A stretch of DNA of 64,000 nucleotides, from contig WAKQ01000002.1 of the NCBI GenBank assembly GCA_015523295.1, positions 1 through 64,000 of the forward strand, written 5' to 3'. Shown here in pieces: positions 8,871 through 31,703 of this stretch (positions within the stretch are counted from its first letter, which is position 1; every line of letters starts with the position of its first letter). The notes under the pieces are model-generated. The model saw only the letters and a program-made list of their open reading frames with translations, did not search any database and was not told the DNA's origin. This DNA comes from Desulfurococcales archaeon. GTDB lineage: Archaea; Thermoproteota; Thermoprotei_A; Sulfolobales; NBVN01. The translations under genes were made by a program, and so were the position numbers.

Positions 8871-8875
8871 GCTAG

Positions 8876-8965
8876 TGCCGCCGCGGGGGTTTGAACCCCG
8901 GACCTCCGGATCTCCCAGGAAGGGCCGTATGAGTCCGGCGCTCCACCAGGCTGAGCTACGGCGGC
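8876..8965 (-). tRNA. Elongator tRNA-Met(CAT) with 16-nt intron at 37/38
   Basis: Reverse complement GCCGCCGTAGCTCAGCC...CCGGACTCATA[CGGCCCTTCCTGGGAG]ATCCGG...CGGCGGCA; CCA not encoded. Confidence 0.88.
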
Positions 8966-23286: not shown

Positions 23287-23748
23287 TTAGGGCAAGTAAA
23301 ACTCGAGTGAGGATCTCTTCCCTGGAAACATCTCAAATACTAAGGCAAGAAGTTTGCTAGGATCGCAAGCAGCGGAGGATATTCTAAACAAATGCGATAT
23401 ATGCCGCCTTTTATCTGTGTTACCGAATCCTTTCACTGGTTGAGTTGTATTTCGACCTGATATAATTGTGTAAAGTTCATCTTCACTCACTCCATAAAAT
23501 ATCAGGGATGCCAATGGCTTACACATTGTTGTAAGGTAGTCGATATGCCAATGAAGTTTCTTATATTTCTTGAAATGCCTCTCAATTCTTTTTAGAGGGT
23601 TCCTAATATTTGCTGAACCAATATACAAGTAGCATCCTTTTGGCAGAACTGGGTTAACTGCTTTCAACGGTAAATTCACTGCTGAATCACATAAAACCAC
23701 CAACAAATAGCCGACTTTTTTACTCTTTAAGGAGCTCATATAACTCAA
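23287..23748 (-). CDS. GIY-YIG/DUF123 family protein
   Basis: VNPVLPKGCYLYIGSANIRNPLKRIERHFKKYKKLHWHIDYLT. Confidence 0.85.
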   Translation of the reverse strand: MSYMSSLKSKKVGYLLVVLCDSAVNLPLKAVNPVLPKGCYLYIGSANIRNPLKRIERHFKKYKKLHWHIDYLTTMCKPLASLIFYGVSEDELYTIISGRNTTQPVKGFGNTDKRRHISHLFRISSAACDPSKLLALVFEMFPGKRSSLEFYLP

Positions 23749-24100
23749 TACCCAATTTCCTATAAACTCTTATTATGTCTCTAATACCTGTATTCTTTTG
23801 TTCTACAGATTTAATCGCTTTCCCCGTTCCGTAGAGGGCAGCACCTACAGCATAAGTTACTCCAGTAGGATCTGCTGGAAAAGTTAAGAAAACCATAGCT
23901 GCCTTTTCCAGGTTCTCTGACTTAGTTGACTCATTCTGCATCCCCATAACCGGTTTAAGAACTGAGGCAGTATCTTTCAGAAGATTTACCGCTCTCACAG
24001 TACCTTTAGCACTGCATCTAGCGTTTTGAGTTACCTCCTTAAGAGAGGAGGCGATCTTCAATGCATAATCCTTTCTCACATCCCTCACCTTCTCAATCAC
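23720..24100 (-). CDS. Hypothetical protein, 126 aa
   Basis: ORF in operon-like arrangement. Confidence 0.5.
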   Translation of the reverse strand: MIEKVRDVRKDYALKIASSLKEVTQNARCSAKGTVRAVNLLKDTASVLKPVMGMQNESTKSENLEKAAMVFLTFPADPTGVTYAVGAALYGTGKAIKSVEQKNTGIRDIIRVYRKLGIELYELLKE

Positions 24101-24131: not shown

Positions 24132-24428
24132 TCACGAGCCGGCCTCCGCAGCTTCCTCCGGCGTTGAAACCACGTCAATTTCAAGGTTCTCTGCGCTCTC
24201 TAAAGCCTTAAGAAGCTTAATGCCTAAACCGGAGACTTTATATACCCTATAATTCCCTTTCTCATTAACTAGCTCGATAATCCCTAGAGCCTCCAGAACG
24301 TGGAAAGTAGCCAACACTTCATAACGAGGTAATCCGGTTGCCGCAACTACATCACCTGGTGTTACCACCCGGCCTACCATCGACTCTATTATATTCTTTA
24401 ACCTTTCCCTGAAGCCCCTCACAAGCAA
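24132..24428 (-). CDS. Winged-helix DNA-binding protein
   Basis: GDVVAATGLPRYEVLATFHVLEALGIIELVNEKGNYRVYKVS. Confidence 0.6.
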   Translation of the reverse strand: MLVRGFRERLKNIIESMVGRVVTPGDVVAATGLPRYEVLATFHVLEALGIIELVNEKGNYRVYKVSGLGIKLLKALESAENLEIDVVSTPEEAAEAGS

Positions 24429-24496
24429 CCACCGTCAAAGCACTGCGATTATATGAATATTTAAAACGGAAGACCCTTCAGAACAATTTTTAAACC

Positions 24497-24988
24497 ATGT
24501 ATCTTTGTGAGGTGATAACAAAAGTGAGAAGAAAATATCTGGGTAAACCATCAAGGAAAGGTGTCAGTGATCTGGTTGTCATCCTGACCCTCATGGCAAT
24601 TTCTATACCGGTTGTGATGGCTGTACAGAGTTGGTTAGGAGCTCAAACTTCCAGAGTGAACTCACTTGTGACTACCCCAGAACTCCAAGGTGTTCTCATA
24701 GGAAAGTCTAGCGAGGGTGATTTCAGTATATTTATCTTAAAGATTACAAATAATGGGGACTCCTCCTACAATCTCTCATCTGCTAACGTGGGCGTACAAG
24801 CCATTCTACGGAATGGTTCTACAATACCAGCTCAATTCACACCAGTTAAAAGCGAGTTGCTCAAACCAACCGGATCAGTGACAGCTGTGGTGAAAGTAGG
24901 CACTCCCCTAAACAATGTAAAGACGCTGGTACTTGAATTTACAGCAAACAATGGCGAGGCATACACCCTGAACATAAACATAGATTAG
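24497..24988 (+). CDS. Archaeal type IV pilin-like secreted protein (class III signal peptide)
   Basis: Short basic N-terminus, SRKG-VSDLVVILTLMAISIPVVMAVQSWL hydrophobic segment, beta-rich Ser/Thr/Asn C-terminus. Confidence 0.7.
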   Translation: MYLCEVITKVRRKYLGKPSRKGVSDLVVILTLMAISIPVVMAVQSWLGAQTSRVNSLVTTPELQGVLIGKSSEGDFSIFILKITNNGDSSYNLSSANVGVQAILRNGSTIPAQFTPVKSELLKPTGSVTAVVKVGTPLNNVKTLVLEFTANNGEAYTLNINID

Positions 24989-25040
24989 TTAAAAACGAAC
25001 ATCCCCTCTTTTTACCTTCCCTGAACCTCGAGGGATCAAG

Positions 25041-26300
25041 TTGAAAGTCATATTTCAATACTCGGTCGGAGAAGCAGAAATACAAGTGGTCAAGACTGTG
25101 AGAGGATATCAATATATCATAAACAAGCCCTACACCCATGAATTTTCTAGGAAGGTTAGAGATGCAGCTGAAATCGCGATCATGAGCAATCCCTCACATA
25201 CTGAAATATACAGCATAGCTAAAAGGATTGCAAGACTCCTCAAAACTAAGGGAGAGCAAGAAACTGCGATTGTCTATTCACTTAGGGAATCTCTGAAGTA
25301 TAGGAAGCTTCAGGTGCTTATTGACGACCCCTACGTAGAGGACATCTCTGCTGTGGGACCAGGACCTATATGGGTTAGGCATTCACGTCTCTTAGGGATG
25401 GATCCCTCAGTGGATTACATACCAACAAACCTAGTGTTTGATGACAGGATAGACTTCCTGCAGCACCTCCTACTGCTTGCCGAGAGATCGGGGAGGATGA
25501 TTTCAAAGGCTAACCCGATAGTTGATGGTAACCTCCCAGAAGAGGATGGAGGTCATAGGATCCATCTAGTCCTACCAGATATAGCTGGTATGTCTGGTGA
25601 GATCGTTGTGCGGAAGAAAAAACCCTTCCGAAGTATCACATTAGAAGATCTTAGGAAGGGTGGAATGCTAGATGATGAAATCATTAAAATTATTGAAAGG
25701 ATAATAAAATCTAGAGGGTCTTTACTTATCGTAGGTCCCCCTGGTTCAGGCAAGACGACCCTACTCAGAGCAATATTATACAGTTTGGTTCCTAGGTCAT
25801 GGAAGGTAGCTATAATTGAGGACACGCCTGAGATAGATCCTCCTCCAGGGTCATCATGGGTTAGGTATATAGTCCCTCTAAGCTGGGGTTCGGTAGAAAG
25901 CCTTGATCAGTTTAGCCTGACTAAAGCCGCCTTAAGAGCGTCTGTAAGTAAGTTCTTGGTAATCGGGGAGACTAGAGGGAAAGAGGCTAGAGTTCTCGCA
26001 CAGGCAATGAACATGGGCCTAGGTGGGCTTACTACATTTCATGGAGGCAGTGCCTCGGAGGCTATCATGAGATTGTCCTCTCATCCCATCAGCCTCGGCC
26101 CAACACAGATAACGATGTTTGATGCCATACTAACATTAGGTTTCCTTGAAGTGAATAAAGGTGGTCTCCGGAGGACTGTCGTTTCAGTGGACAAGCCATT
26201 TATTGCTGAAAGAGGTCTTGAGCTCAAGAATATTTACAGGTTAGATAACACAACTAATCCGTCTCAACCAAGAGAAGTCATAATTACTTTAGCTAGGTGA
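25041..26300 (+). CDS. Type II/IV secretion-system ATPase (VirB11/FlaI/TadA-like)
   Basis: LLIVGPPGSGKTTLLRAIL Walker A, IIEDTPEI Asp box, FLVIGETRGKEARVLAQAMNMG; TTG start. Confidence 0.92.
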   Translation: MKVIFQYSVGEAEIQVVKTVRGYQYIINKPYTHEFSRKVRDAAEIAIMSNPSHTEIYSIAKRIARLLKTKGEQETAIVYSLRESLKYRKLQVLIDDPYVEDISAVGPGPIWVRHSRLLGMDPSVDYIPTNLVFDDRIDFLQHLLLLAERSGRMISKANPIVDGNLPEEDGGHRIHLVLPDIAGMSGEIVVRKKKPFRSITLEDLRKGGMLDDEIIKIIERIIKSRGSLLIVGPPGSGKTTLLRAILYSLVPRSWKVAIIEDTPEIDPPPGSSWVRYIVPLSWGSVESLDQFSLTKAALRASVSKFLVIGETRGKEARVLAQAMNMGLGGLTTFHGGSASEAIMRLSSHPISLGPTQITMFDAILTLGFLEVNKGGLRRTVVSVDKPFIAERGLELKNIYRLDNTTNPSQPREVIITLAR

Positions 26301-27841
26301 TGTCCTCAGTGAATTTCATAGTAAAACTGAATGCAGAGCTAACTGACGCCAGAAATGCTTTTCTCTCGTTTATAATTAAGCAATTTGCGGAAGCTGGACT
26401 AAAAGTTAACGAGAATCCTACGACAAACATCCTATACCTCATTATATATGGTCTTCCCCTAAGCATAACATTAATCTACCTCCTTAGCTTCTTTACAAAC
26501 CTTCTTACCTTTAGAGCGCTTTTAATGATCCACGAGGGATTCCTCCTACCTATCCTACTCTTCATAATTCTGGGCATATCTTTCCCTTCAGGTATCATTG
26601 TGTTAAAATTGCTCGCCCTCACACGTGGGAGAAGAGTTGAAAAGGAGGTTAAATATGTAGTAATTGCTGAATCCATAATAGCCCAAGGGACTCCTAATTT
26701 AGTTGAAGATCTTTCTTCCCTTCACATATGGAGGAATGTTTTCCCCTCTCTCGAGAAAGAGGGGTGGGTAATATCAGCGTTAAGAAGGATCTTCACAGTC
26801 CCTGAAACTGTTCGGATATATATAAAACTCCTAAAGTCCCCTTGGGTTAAGGAGCTTTTACAGGATTATCTATTCGCCTTAAGCTTGGGGTCTACTAGGG
26901 AGTGGCTCCAGGTAAAAGGTAGGGAGGTAACCGACGAGATAAAAAAGGGAACTAAGGCCGCATTGGAAGGAAGAATCTCTATATCCCTTATTACAGCTAT
27001 ATTACTGGGATACACCCCGCCCCTCGTTATAACACTTTCTTCTTTATTGGGAAGGGAGATCGTGGAGCGCGCGTTACTATTAACTACCTTAGCGATACCT
27101 CTAGCCCTGACTATCACACCACAATATCCAGTCCATATGAAAATAATACGCGGGATTAACCGAAAAGCCTTATCACTTATTGTGTTCCCTCTCTTAGCTC
27201 TTCTAATCATGAGAATAGAAGGGCTGGTAACCCTTAGAGAGACTCTACTTATCACTTCCTTAGCTCTAATAGCCTACGGCACATTCTCCTTTTATAATGA
27301 TGTGGAGGGTTTGAGGGAGATTAGATCCTTGGTGGGTATACTAAACATATTACATGAGACGCCCTTAAGTAAGGCTGCCTCTTTAAGCATCATTAAGGAA
27401 GCTCTCATGCATTCCCCGGAAAAGACCTGGAGAAACATTGGTGAGGAACTAACCCTAATCACACTCCCGAAAAGCATGAGTAGACTTAAAACATGGATTT
27501 CAAGGTTCACTGTTTACGTCCTCATAAAAGGTTTAGAATACGGCTGCCTAAACAGGGAGAGCCTAGCTAAGCTCTCAGGCTTGATCATTGATTCTCTTCA
27601 CGACCTTAAGGTTGCTTTAGCAAGTAACTTAGTAGTGGGTAGTTTAGCTGTAACACTTCCATTCATTCTAACTTCTATAACGTCCTTCATCACTCCAGAC
27701 CCAATTTTAAAGATATATACGTTCGTTTCAACTATGGGTTATGGATTCTACGCATCCTACATATTATTCAACGATATTAACAATACCTTAATTCCTGGAA
27801 TTATTGGTTTAGAGTTATCCTTTCTGGTGAACCCGGCTTGA
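26297..27841 (+). CDS. TadC/FlaJ-like T2SF-family integral membrane protein
   Basis: 514 aa, several TM segments, directly after secretion ATPase with 4-nt overlap. Confidence 0.75.
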   Translation: MMSSVNFIVKLNAELTDARNAFLSFIIKQFAEAGLKVNENPTTNILYLIIYGLPLSITLIYLLSFFTNLLTFRALLMIHEGFLLPILLFIILGISFPSGIIVLKLLALTRGRRVEKEVKYVVIAESIIAQGTPNLVEDLSSLHIWRNVFPSLEKEGWVISALRRIFTVPETVRIYIKLLKSPWVKELLQDYLFALSLGSTREWLQVKGREVTDEIKKGTKAALEGRISISLITAILLGYTPPLVITLSSLLGREIVERALLLTTLAIPLALTITPQYPVHMKIIRGINRKALSLIVFPLLALLIMRIEGLVTLRETLLITSLALIAYGTFSFYNDVEGLREIRSLVGILNILHETPLSKAASLSIIKEALMHSPEKTWRNIGEELTLITLPKSMSRLKTWISRFTVYVLIKGLEYGCLNRESLAKLSGLIIDSLHDLKVALASNLVVGSLAVTLPFILTSITSFITPDPILKIYTFVSTMGYGFYASYILFNDINNTLIPGIIGLELSFLVNPA

Positions 27842-29937
27842 AGCCGAAAATTATTTCAGCAATAGACCTCATATCTTTTCTTAAGGCTCATAAGATAAAG
27901 GCTGAGGGCACCGTAGTAAAGCTAGTGAACGATTCTGAAAGGGAACCCTATCTCATTATACGTCCGGCAAGCGGAGACACGTTCTTCATGAAGCTAAACC
28001 CCGAGTTAGATGATGGCAATTTAACCGTGTCAGGGAGAAATGCTTGTCCCTCTAATCAAAACTCAATACCAGTTGTAAAAAGTATGGAACGTCCAGGTGG
28101 GTACGTTCTCTTCATATCGAATGCTGACAATGTTCTTCGAGTTAATGTGTGCGACAGGCTGAACCGCATAATAAGCAGATACTCAGTTAGAGGGAATAGC
28201 AGCAACATTCTCTGCGGTAATGGGCTTTGCCTAACGGTAGGAAAGAAGGAGAACATTGCCCTAACACCTAATGGATATCATCCGATGGTTAAGGGCTTAA
28301 CACCGCTTATGTATTGCAAAGGTGATGAATATTATGTTGACATAGGTAATAAGCTCCTCGTTAGATATGACGGGAATGTCCTCACTCCTTTAACCAACTA
28401 TAGCTTTCAGTATATGGATTGTATGGATAAAGGAGTCATATGCCTTTCCGACGGCAGAGATGTACATATTATTGAAGAGGGTGCGTCCTATGACGTGGCT
28501 GTAGGAGAGGTAAAAAAGCTTCACTGCTATAAAGACATTGTACTCACAGGAAAAGAAGGAAGGTGGAGCCTGTACATCTTAAGCAAGGGCATTTCTTCCG
28601 ACTTCTTTGCTGATGAGTGCATCTTAAGCAATGGGGGATTTATTTACTGTATTTCTCGTGGAATACTGGTATCAGTAGACCCTTATACAGGGATAGACGA
28701 ATACGTACGCAAGTTAAGAGGTGTTGTCACGTCTAAGACATATGCTGTAGTTGAAGTGAGTCCCTGGGGACCTATGCATAACTACAAAGTATCCGGGCCG
28801 GTTAAGATCGTTTCTACATTCCAAGCAGGTGATACACTTAAGATGTTGTTAAGGCCGATGAAGTTGGGCTGGTCAGGTGAAATCTTCGTAAATGTTGAAT
28901 CCCCTCTCTACATGTATAATGGAAAAATATCTCTGACCTCTTCAAAACCGGTGATCTCTAACATAAGCATAGATCACTGCATGTTCGCTCCCACGGGGAA
29001 TATTGTTGGCGAAAGCTCCAATTCCATCACAGCATTAAAATTCAATGTTCTGAGAACTACCCCAGAAAAGTACACTTTGATCATAAGAGGCCATTACGTA
29101 GATGTAGTCAAGACCTCATTTAAGATTTCTAGCGCGGGAGATGAGGATTTATGGCTAGTCAATATCAAAGGTAGGATAGGCTCCGAAGGTATTAATAGCG
29201 GGTATGTCTTATACGATATCAGGTTTAAATCGTCTTTTGAGGAATTTCTTCTCTCCAGACTCATGCTTCCCTTAAGTAAATGCGTGAAAGTTAATGAACC
29301 TGTAAGCAAGATAAAGGCCTTCAGATATGGAAATAACTTAAAAATTAAGACCTCGAACAGCAATTTCCATCTCAAAGTATATTGCCTGGATTCCTTCTTC
29401 GAGGGTGTAGGCTCCGTTACCCTGGACAAATGCACATTACCTATAGTAGTTGAGGAGATCAAAAGAAGAGGGATGTTTGAATGGGTAAGTCATTCTCTGT
29501 TGCAATTAGAACCACTGTTAAATCTTCATGAAAGTGAAAAACCGAAATACGAGACTGCTGTTAAGAGCACAGATAATGAGATAGACGTGCACATCCCGAA
29601 GAAACCTCCACGGCAAGATGTAAAACTTCATGGAGTACTTTTTGAGAAAATAAGGGAACCAGCATATTTAATCAAGATCTCAACGGGCTTGCCTGCGTTA
29701 TCATTTATCGTCTGTGGAGAGAAGTCCTACATTTCAATGGGGAGTGAGGTATTGAAGAAGATTCATTGCCCTATTTTCAAAGCACTTAATGGAGTGTATG
29801 TGTATACCCTATATCCCGGACTCCCTGCTGAAAAAGCTCTTGGGAAATCAGTGATCAACGGCGTCCAAGCCTTTAGAGAAATACTTATCTCGGGTGTAAA
29901 GGCAGGCAATGAATTGCGTAGGGTGCTCACGCGATGA
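27838..29937 (+). CDS. 699-aa protein of unknown function, predicted beta-rich
   Basis: Long ORF with 4-nt overlaps at both ends in the pilus/VirB4 operon. Confidence 0.7.
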   Translation: MKPKIISAIDLISFLKAHKIKAEGTVVKLVNDSEREPYLIIRPASGDTFFMKLNPELDDGNLTVSGRNACPSNQNSIPVVKSMERPGGYVLFISNADNVLRVNVCDRLNRIISRYSVRGNSSNILCGNGLCLTVGKKENIALTPNGYHPMVKGLTPLMYCKGDEYYVDIGNKLLVRYDGNVLTPLTNYSFQYMDCMDKGVICLSDGRDVHIIEEGASYDVAVGEVKKLHCYKDIVLTGKEGRWSLYILSKGISSDFFADECILSNGGFIYCISRGILVSVDPYTGIDEYVRKLRGVVTSKTYAVVEVSPWGPMHNYKVSGPVKIVSTFQAGDTLKMLLRPMKLGWSGEIFVNVESPLYMYNGKISLTSSKPVISNISIDHCMFAPTGNIVGESSNSITALKFNVLRTTPEKYTLIIRGHYVDVVKTSFKISSAGDEDLWLVNIKGRIGSEGINSGYVLYDIRFKSSFEEFLLSRLMLPLSKCVKVNEPVSKIKAFRYGNNLKIKTSNSNFHLKVYCLDSFFEGVGSVTLDKCTLPIVVEEIKRRGMFEWVSHSLLQLEPLLNLHESEKPKYETAVKSTDNEIDVHIPKKPPRQDVKLHGVLFEKIREPAYLIKISTGLPALSFIVCGEKSYISMGSEVLKKIHCPIFKALNGVYVYTLYPGLPAEKALGKSVINGVQAFREILISGVKAGNELRRVLTR

Positions 29938-31703
29938 ACCTTAAGAAATTCTTAGCTATGTTGAGAAAAGGGAGACCTTACAATATTAGGGAAGGGAGCC
30001 ACAGGAGATTTACTGTGATCTACTCGGATGAGAGCAAGATCTGTGGTAAAATCACCTTAAGAATAAAAGGTGTCTCAAGAACTTTAACAGATATGGAAGC
30101 TGATGATCTTAAGCGTTTCCTGAAGAGCTACTTTAACATGCTTAATGTTGGTTTCCCTATAGAGATATCCACTAGGATCTTCCCTATTTCAACTGAGAAA
30201 TACTTGGAAAGGATAGATAAGAAAATAGACACGTTGAAGGTGATCTTAGAGGATAATCCTTCCTTAACGGGACTCAAAGATGAAATCAGAAGACTAGAAA
30301 ACCAGAGGAAATCCCTACTAGAGGGTAATCACCCCCTAAAGATTGAGGCGCTAATATATATTTATGGATGTGCGCCATCTTCTGATGAAGTCCTAAGACT
30401 ACTTGAACATAGGGCTAAAACTCTGCGGGACGTGTTGTCATCACTCGGTATTAGAGCCTCACCTATTGAAAGCTCTAACTCTGAGGAATTCAACCAAACC
30501 TTTTTTCGTGAATTAGGCATCCCAACCAGTTTGCCTCGCAAATTAACTGAATTTATTAACTCACTTAAACCAAAGCAGTATCTGATCTTGGCGTCCAACA
30601 TTTCAGCAATCTTCTTCCCTTTCCTTCTAGGTGGAAAGACTGAGGCAGAGGTTTCGAACACAGGCATCATCATTGGAACAGATCCCCTAAGAAATAGCGT
30701 AATCACTTGGGATCCCAGCTCCAGTACATCACCACATGTGATAGTTGTTGGCCCTACAGGATCAGGTAAGACCACATTCCTTACGCAGCTAGTGGAAGAG
30801 TTTAGAGATGCATACGGAGCCGCATCTTTAATTATAGACGTTAAAGGTGAATACAAAGAGAGGCTGGATTCCCTGGGTATTAAGTATGTGAAGCTTCGTT
30901 TAGGGGAGGATGCAGGTGTTGACCTATGCAAGTATATGAACATGTTCCCACCTAGATGGAGAGGCGATGTATTAACTGATGTCATAGCCCAGTCATTCAG
31001 TGTCTTTAAATTGCCTGAATTGACAGGTAGGCTGCATGAGGCAATAGAATTAGCTACATCGTCAGGTTGCCATAATCTTATCAACTCACTGATGGAGTAC
31101 ATACGCCTGAAAGGAAATGATTACTATACATTCAAGTTAGCTACCGTTCTTCATAAGATCGAGCTCCTAGAGAGGGATGATAGAGATGATATGATTGCCT
31201 ATATAATTGATTTTCTAGCAGGAATCCTCAATAAACCTGTAATATTAGACCTATCCTATCTCCTAGGATTAGAGCCAGAATTGGTTGTAATGATTGTTAG
31301 TATCACGTCAAATCTCATTCTCTCAATGGTTAAGGAGATGCCTAGGGTTTTTACGAGAGCTTGGAAGCTACTAATCTTTGATGAGGGATGGCTTTATATA
31401 AGGCCATTAAGGGGGCTTATAGCTCCTCTCTTAAGGCTAGGAAGGAGTTACAGACTTAGTGTAGCTATTGCTACTCAAGATCTTAAAGATCTCGAATTTC
31501 TAGGGGGGTTCGCTGCAAGCAATACAGGGCTTCTCATAGCTCTCTCATCTACAGATAAGTCATACTGGAAGGGAATTTCCTCCTATATGAACATTAATGA
31601 TGAGGAAGTAACTTCCTATATATCCCTCCTCAGGAAGTGTGAAGGTGTTGCAAGGGTGGGTAGTGACCCCAAAGGAAGGCCTGTAACTTTCAAAACTTGT
31701 TAA
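29934..31703 (+). CDS. VirB4/HerA-like ATPase
   Basis: PHVIVVGPTGSGKTTFLTQLVEEF, LIIDVKGEY, LLIFDEGWLYIRPLRGLIAPLLRLGRSYRLSVAIATQDLKDL. Confidence 0.88.
   Translation: MNLKKFLAMLRKGRPYNIREGSHRRFTVIYSDESKICGKITLRIKGVSRTLTDMEADDLKRFLKSYFNMLNVGFPIEISTRIFPISTEKYLERIDKKIDTLKVILEDNPSLTGLKDEIRRLENQRKSLLEGNHPLKIEALIYIYGCAPSSDEVLRLLEHRAKTLRDVLSSLGIRASPIESSNSEEFNQTFFRELGIPTSLPRKLTEFINSLKPKQYLILASNISAIFFPFLLGGKTEAEVSNTGIIIGTDPLRNSVITWDPSSSTSPHVIVVGPTGSGKTTFLTQLVEEFRDAYGAASLIIDVKGEYKERLDSLGIKYVKLRLGEDAGVDLCKYMNMFPPRWRGDVLTDVIAQSFSVFKLPELTGRLHEAIELATSSGCHNLINSLMEYIRLKGNDYYTFKLATVLHKIELLERDDRDDMIAYIIDFLAGILNKPVILDLSYLLGLEPELVVMIVSITSNLILSMVKEMPRVFTRAWKLLIFDEGWLYIRPLRGLIAPLLRLGRSYRLSVAIATQDLKDLEFLGGFAASNTGLLIALSSTDKSYWKGISSYMNINDEEVTSYISLLRKCEGVARVGSDPKGRPVTFKTC

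Follow-up and report, generated by a model that had tools for sequence, protein, structure and literature searches.

Ups-like pilus genes, a remote UpsX homologue and the CedB ATPase lie together in a predicted operon of a Desulfurococcales archaeon

The window analysed here is a stretch of 64,000 nucleotides from a Desulfurococcales archaeon (GCA_015523295.1, contig WAKQ01000002.1, positions 1 to 64,000), contig 2 of a source genome of 932,587 bases that is 77% complete and belongs to a family labelled f1 here. It carries an array of five genes, all on the + strand, which we call in order pilin, E, F, X and cedB (Table 1). A first-pass annotation, made from the letters of the DNA, had described five co-directional genes with 4-nt overlaps at the last three junctions, and the open reading frame (ORF) coordinates, the strand and the overlaps (E/F, F/X and X/CedB) were all confirmed by reading the sequence. 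The start codons of genes 1 to 5 are ATG, TTG, GTG, TTG and ATG, and the genes are probably co-transcribed. The same annotation took the first three products for a pilin with a class III signal peptide, a VirB11/FlaI-type ATPase and a polytopic membrane protein, which holds, and the last two for an unknown protein and a VirB4/HerA-like ATPase, which we revise below to an UpsX homologue and CedB. We consider it probable that the operon unites an Ups-like pilus with the Ced DNA-exchange system and that UpsX works with CedB.

Table 1. Genes and features of the locus (positions in the window).
Feature	Position	Strand	Basis
Gene 1, pilin with archaeal class III signal peptide; sole pilin gene in the cluster	24497-24988	+	Alignment of 14 relatives
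Gene 2, E, pilus assembly ATPase, FlaI/TadA/UpsE type	25041-26300	+	Profiles, structure matches, tree
Gene 3, F, polytopic pilus platform, TadC/FlaJ/UpsF type	26297-27841	+	hhalign to UpsF, position
Gene 4, X, UpsX homologue, 699 amino acids	27838-29937	+	NCBIfam UpsX, reverse search, hhalign
Gene 5, CedB, VirB4-type ATPase (DNA import predicted)	29934-31703	+	NCBIfam CedB, tree
Winged-helix-type regulator gene, ~98 amino acids, 'LPRYEVL' family, divergent	24132-24428	-	Weak MarR_2 match
Divergent intergenic region, 68 bp, TATA-like AT-rich stretches; presumed promoter	24429-24496	.	Sequence read

The product of gene 5 matches the NCBIfam CedB model (NF041017) over residues 42-587 with 190.6 bits (E=4.9e-56). 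The score does not reach the curated equivalog cut-off of 700, which is to be expected of a distant lineage; the CedD model gives 18.6 bits and the HerA models 14.8 to 28 bits. The Walker A (GPTGSGKT) and Walker B (IFDEGW) motifs seen in the first pass are present, and their key residues are invariant in 15 relatives. In a CedB tree, the proteins of f1, f4 and f2 form one clade with Sulfolobaceae CedB (support 99/99), and the cedA-linked CedB of other families (95/94) stand apart from it, as do the CedD, HerA and VirD4-like rows. Judged by its sequence, gene 5 is CedB. A repair helicase of the HerA/NurA kind was considered for this gene and is ruled out by the scores (190.6 bits for CedB vs 14.8 for the HerA repair-helicase model); a profile scan of the operon proteins found no NurA, and no second CedB copy was found in the source genome. 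The remaining Ced genes lie elsewhere in the source genome: CedA at G000:C7 (CedA model, E=7e-46), a short CedA1-like gene directly upstream of it, assigned from its position and a partial match, and a CedD-like gene at G000:C3. Across the order, 175 of 216 genomes carry CedA. Both CedA and CedB are missing from the five g10 genomes of f1, which also give no X match at the search thresholds; one of them has a divergent X near E and F at locus L215, and the joint loss of CedA and CedB is thus firm, that of X only partial.

According to published work, deletion of cedB reduces import only, and import in Sulfolobus requires CedB together with CedA (PMC11868833). The presence of two motor ATPases in one operon could instead indicate a single hybrid machine, in which the CedB-class ATPase acts on the pilus itself, retracting it or withdrawing it with DNA bound, so that the pilus draws DNA into the cell as happens in bacterial competence. 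Archaea are described as being without PilT (PMC4858521), the retraction motor of Ups pili is reported as not identified (PMC7064770), and the E-F module is joined elsewhere to other ATPases of the type IV secretion system (T4SS) class, either VirD4-like or VirB4-like. However, CedB is of the VirB4 type, not the PilT type, and since CedA is present here, CedB already has the membrane partner that import in Sulfolobus calls for. We consider such a machine quite unlikely.

Gene 4 had been listed as encoding an unknown 699-residue protein; the gene is there as described, but its product is not of an unknown kind. It matches the NCBIfam UpsX model (NF046072) with E=6e-6 and 25.2 bits, far below the cut-off of 550, and a genome-wide search with this model finds X at E=4.9e-7. 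In the reverse direction, a profile built from X relatives matches a Sulfolobaceae UpsX (E=1e-7). Alignment of the X and UpsX families by hhalign gave a probability of 99.4 and a score of 178 over 643 columns, compared with scores of 14 to 22 for the reversed and five column-shuffled controls. By these profile comparisons X is a distant homologue of UpsX along its full length. The AlphaFold2 model of X is mostly beta (mean predicted local distance difference test score, pLDDT, 81.6; predicted template modelling score, pTM, 0.61), and from the strand pattern and the Foldseek matches the protein may be read as an N-terminal propeller followed by immunoglobulin (Ig)-like domains and a C-terminal helix. 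All of the Foldseek matches were generic, to proteins that contain propellers or Ig domains, and had low template modelling (TM) scores, and we therefore draw no function from them. Hydropathy predicts no membrane span in X. In published work UpsX has no recognisable domain and its function is described as unexplained; its deletion leaves pili and aggregation normal and lowers DNA transfer to ~50%, and the protein shifts partly to the membrane after ultraviolet (UV) irradiation (PMC3892339). A corrigendum (PMC5221435) deals with a different strain. This deletion phenotype fits UpsX as a partner of CedB.

The first three genes are those expected of a type IV pilus. The class III site of the pilin (SRKG / VSDLVVIL) has 8 residues that are invariant across 14 relatives, in which a conserved R-K-G-V-S-[DE]-L is followed by a hydrophobic stretch; its match to the UpsB model is very weak (E=0.07). 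E is a complete T2SSE/FlaI-type ATPase (PF00437, 75.9 bits) that matches the FlaI structures 4ii7/4ihq (E=2e-37) and forms one clade with the E proteins of related loci (100/100). Elsewhere in the same genome (G000:C4:5166-7307), an open frame of 1349 amino acids contains two T2SSE-type stretches, an unusual length for a secretion ATPase. F has no direct match to any Pfam or NCBIfam model; its relatives have 7-10 hydrophobic segments, and hhalign aligned it to Sulfolobaceae UpsF with a probability of 96.9 over 394 columns (E 1.6e-10; decoys nil). For F only the fold class is secure, UpsF being the one TadC/FlaJ group with which the profile comparison was made. The pilus is Ups-like, E being at most a possible orthologue of UpsE itself.

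Within f1, relatives with proteins only 13-53% identical to those of the source genome show the order pilin-E-F-X-CedB again, and because the same five-gene order is kept at this level of divergence, it is more than chance. X exceeds the 1e-6 threshold in 24 genomes of f1, which represent ten genera, with the cluster in single copy. From counts tallied by hand from the listed coordinates, CedB is the next gene after X on the same strand in 23/23 f1 genomes where the contig continues, and F lies directly upstream of X in 23/23 where the contig permits the check. Family f4 has the same order with CedB split in two ORFs, and four X ORFs of f4 were examined, two of which the profile recognised, while the remaining two were assigned from their position. 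At the f2 loci L183-L186 and L228, a split CedB is directly preceded by an X-like ORF (760-813 amino acids), with no adjacent pilus genes; this ORF shows moderate homology to X (hhalign 79%, decoys nil) and gave no direct match to UpsX. The CedB of f4 and f2 consists of a separate N-terminal ORF (~120-210 amino acids) and an ATPase ORF (~280-400 amino acids). The split, seen at L054, L056, L181, L182, L183-L186, L228 and L229, is a natural division of the protein. In the Sulfolobaceae, upsX is the first gene of the ups operon, with CedB at a separate locus, and in f3, f7, f9 and f10 CedB lies beside CedA. We take f11, which also has strong ArnR and UpsX model matches, to be the Sulfolobaceae, and f2, f9 and f8 are presumably Ignisphaera-like, Desulfurococcaceae and Fervidicoccus-like, respectively.

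The conserved order supports a functional link, although order alone cannot show protein contact, and the genes could encode two independent systems behind a shared promoter, an aggregation pilus and CedB-driven import that are merely co-regulated, with UpsX as a pilus accessory and no direct partner of CedB. The separate loci of the Sulfolobaceae agree with this, as does the retention of X with E and F where CedB is missing, and Ced is reported to function independently of Ups pili (PMC7064770). On the other hand, the f2 X-like ORF and CedB stay paired without pilin, E and F, many relatives have overlapping X and CedB genes, and the upsX deletion affects DNA transfer rather than pili or aggregation (PMC3892339). 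We regard two independent systems as unlikely. As to how the two arrangements arose, the CedB tree and the distribution of X favour an ancestral joint operon that was split in the Sulfolobaceae over a joining in f1 and f4, and the E tree is uninformative.

E-F loci also occur in several lineages of which most are without this type of CedB. At L215, L219, L221, L222 and L225 a homologue of X, itself divergent (E 1e-12 to 8e-24), lies near E and F; no X was seen near E and F at L218, L220, L223 and L224. In Ced-less archaea, E-F loci lie near a T4SS-type ATPase that is VirD4/CedD-like at L215, L218 and L221 and VirB4-like at L219, and these four loci may be further pairings of a pilus with a T4SS. 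A broader proposal, which we hold to be possible if doubtful, is that E-F-UpsX is a general, exchangeable coupler between a type IV pilus and a T4SS-type DNA pump (CedB in f1 and f4, a VirD4- or VirB4-like ATPase in related Ced-less lineages). It would be a true hybrid of the two with UpsX as connector, and the Ups and Ced loci that lie apart in Sulfolobus would descend from it. Such ATPases beside E-F loci of Ced-less lineages are also reminiscent of conjugative elements, and the cluster could be an integrated mobile element that exports DNA or is conjugative; yet it is widespread in one family, in ten genera and in single copy, neither a relaxase nor an integrase was noticed in its vicinity, and its neighbours in the window look like ordinary chromosomal genes. 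We consider a mobile element very improbable.

Four observations weigh against a union of pilus and Ced system in which UpsX serves CedB. The presence of the E-F-X module in lineages without Ced means that X might belong to the pilus. X was not found next to the cedA-linked cedB of f3, f7, f9 and f10, and UpsX therefore cannot be essential to CedB everywhere. In the free tree E falls outside UpsE, with a joint E-UpsE clade not rejected (approximately unbiased test, p-AU 0.085 to 0.138). Finally, the operon may be induced by stress, but neither strand of 24381-24500 contains the motif A(N)TTTC of Sulfolobus UV promoters, so damage induction is not indicated. As a separate matter, a neighbour of cedA-linked cedB of 640-680 amino acids was considered as a candidate UpsX, but the test spoke against it.

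With these points set against it, we still favour the operon as the joined form of two systems that occupy separate loci in Sulfolobus, an Ups-like type IV pilus and the Ced motor CedB, with UpsX as the link. In such a scheme the pilus would be made and its pilins would bind neighbouring cells and hold the cells together, and DNA would then enter through a CedA/CedA1 channel, encoded away from the operon, with the CedB ATPase pulling it in. As a predicted soluble protein of beta-propeller and Ig domains, UpsX might act as an adaptor at the membrane, through which CedB is recruited to the site of contact or activated there. The hybrid pilus/DNA-uptake or conjugation-like apparatus of the first-pass annotation survives in so far as a pilus is joined to a motor of the DNA-uptake type; it is not a wholly new machine, the parts being known from Ups and Ced. 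What is new is the presence of pilus genes and CedB in one operon and the pairing of UpsX with CedB. The passages searched in papers on archaeal CedB contain no mention of an ups-cedB operon or of UpsX-CedB linkage; an earlier note in the original 2016 PNAS paper on Ced is possible. The place of UpsX beside CedB yields a direct hypothesis for the role of UpsX that is testable in Sulfolobus. The operon conflicts with the published view that Ced-bearing Crenarchaea outside the Sulfolobales are without such pili (PMC7064770, PMC11868833), and it offers a possible answer to how these archaea bring mating cells together. The presence of such an operon, in a family of hot-spring archaea, also points to a joint evolution of cell contact and DNA import as a single unit.

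The region upstream of the pilin gene may hold the promoter. Homologues of the divergent winged helix-turn-helix (wHTH) gene adjoin the cluster in most f1 loci, adjoin the UpsX-CedB loci of f2 and lie near the ups operon of several Sulfolobaceae. The gene occurs in 143 of the 216 genomes of the order, mostly in single copy, and because it is found also in genomes without the cluster, we downgraded it from a sixth core part; its product is likely a local regulator and a non-obligate part. Beyond it, in the same divergent direction (strand -), are two genes at 23287-23748 and 23720-24100, of which the former encodes a DUF123 protein that might take part in DNA exchange; DUF123 is also found beside the cluster at L046 and L226. 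Other neighbours in the window include TFB-like, SSB-like, metallophosphoesterase and HAD phosphatase genes and a tRNA. ARAGORN places a tRNA at 8875-8965 (strand -) with an odd two-base anticodon call, 'tc', possibly an intron-containing tRNA.

Among the known systems closest to the operon is the Ups operon of the Sulfolobaceae, upsX-E-F-A-B, in which an UpsX homologue, an E-type ATPase, an F-type platform and class III pilins are likewise clustered, with a homologous wHTH gene nearby in several members. The operon described here differs in gene order (X-E-F-A-B there, pilin-E-F-X here), in having a single class III pilin gene in place of the two pilins UpsA and UpsB, and in the addition of CedB. 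With the Ced system (CedA, CedA1, CedB and CedD) it shares a CedB orthologue, and the CedA, CedA1-like and CedD-like genes are present in the genome; whereas CedB stands beside CedA in other families and alone in the Sulfolobaceae, it is found here in a pilus operon with UpsX. Ted of the Thermoproteales and the VirB4-type archaeal T4SS also use a VirB4-class ATPase, which powers DNA transfer there, and some Ced-less relatives join the E-F module to a VirB4-like or VirD4-like ATPase. Ted differs in having its own TedA and TedC, and the published description of its loci includes no E-F-UpsX pilus genes (PMC9905601).

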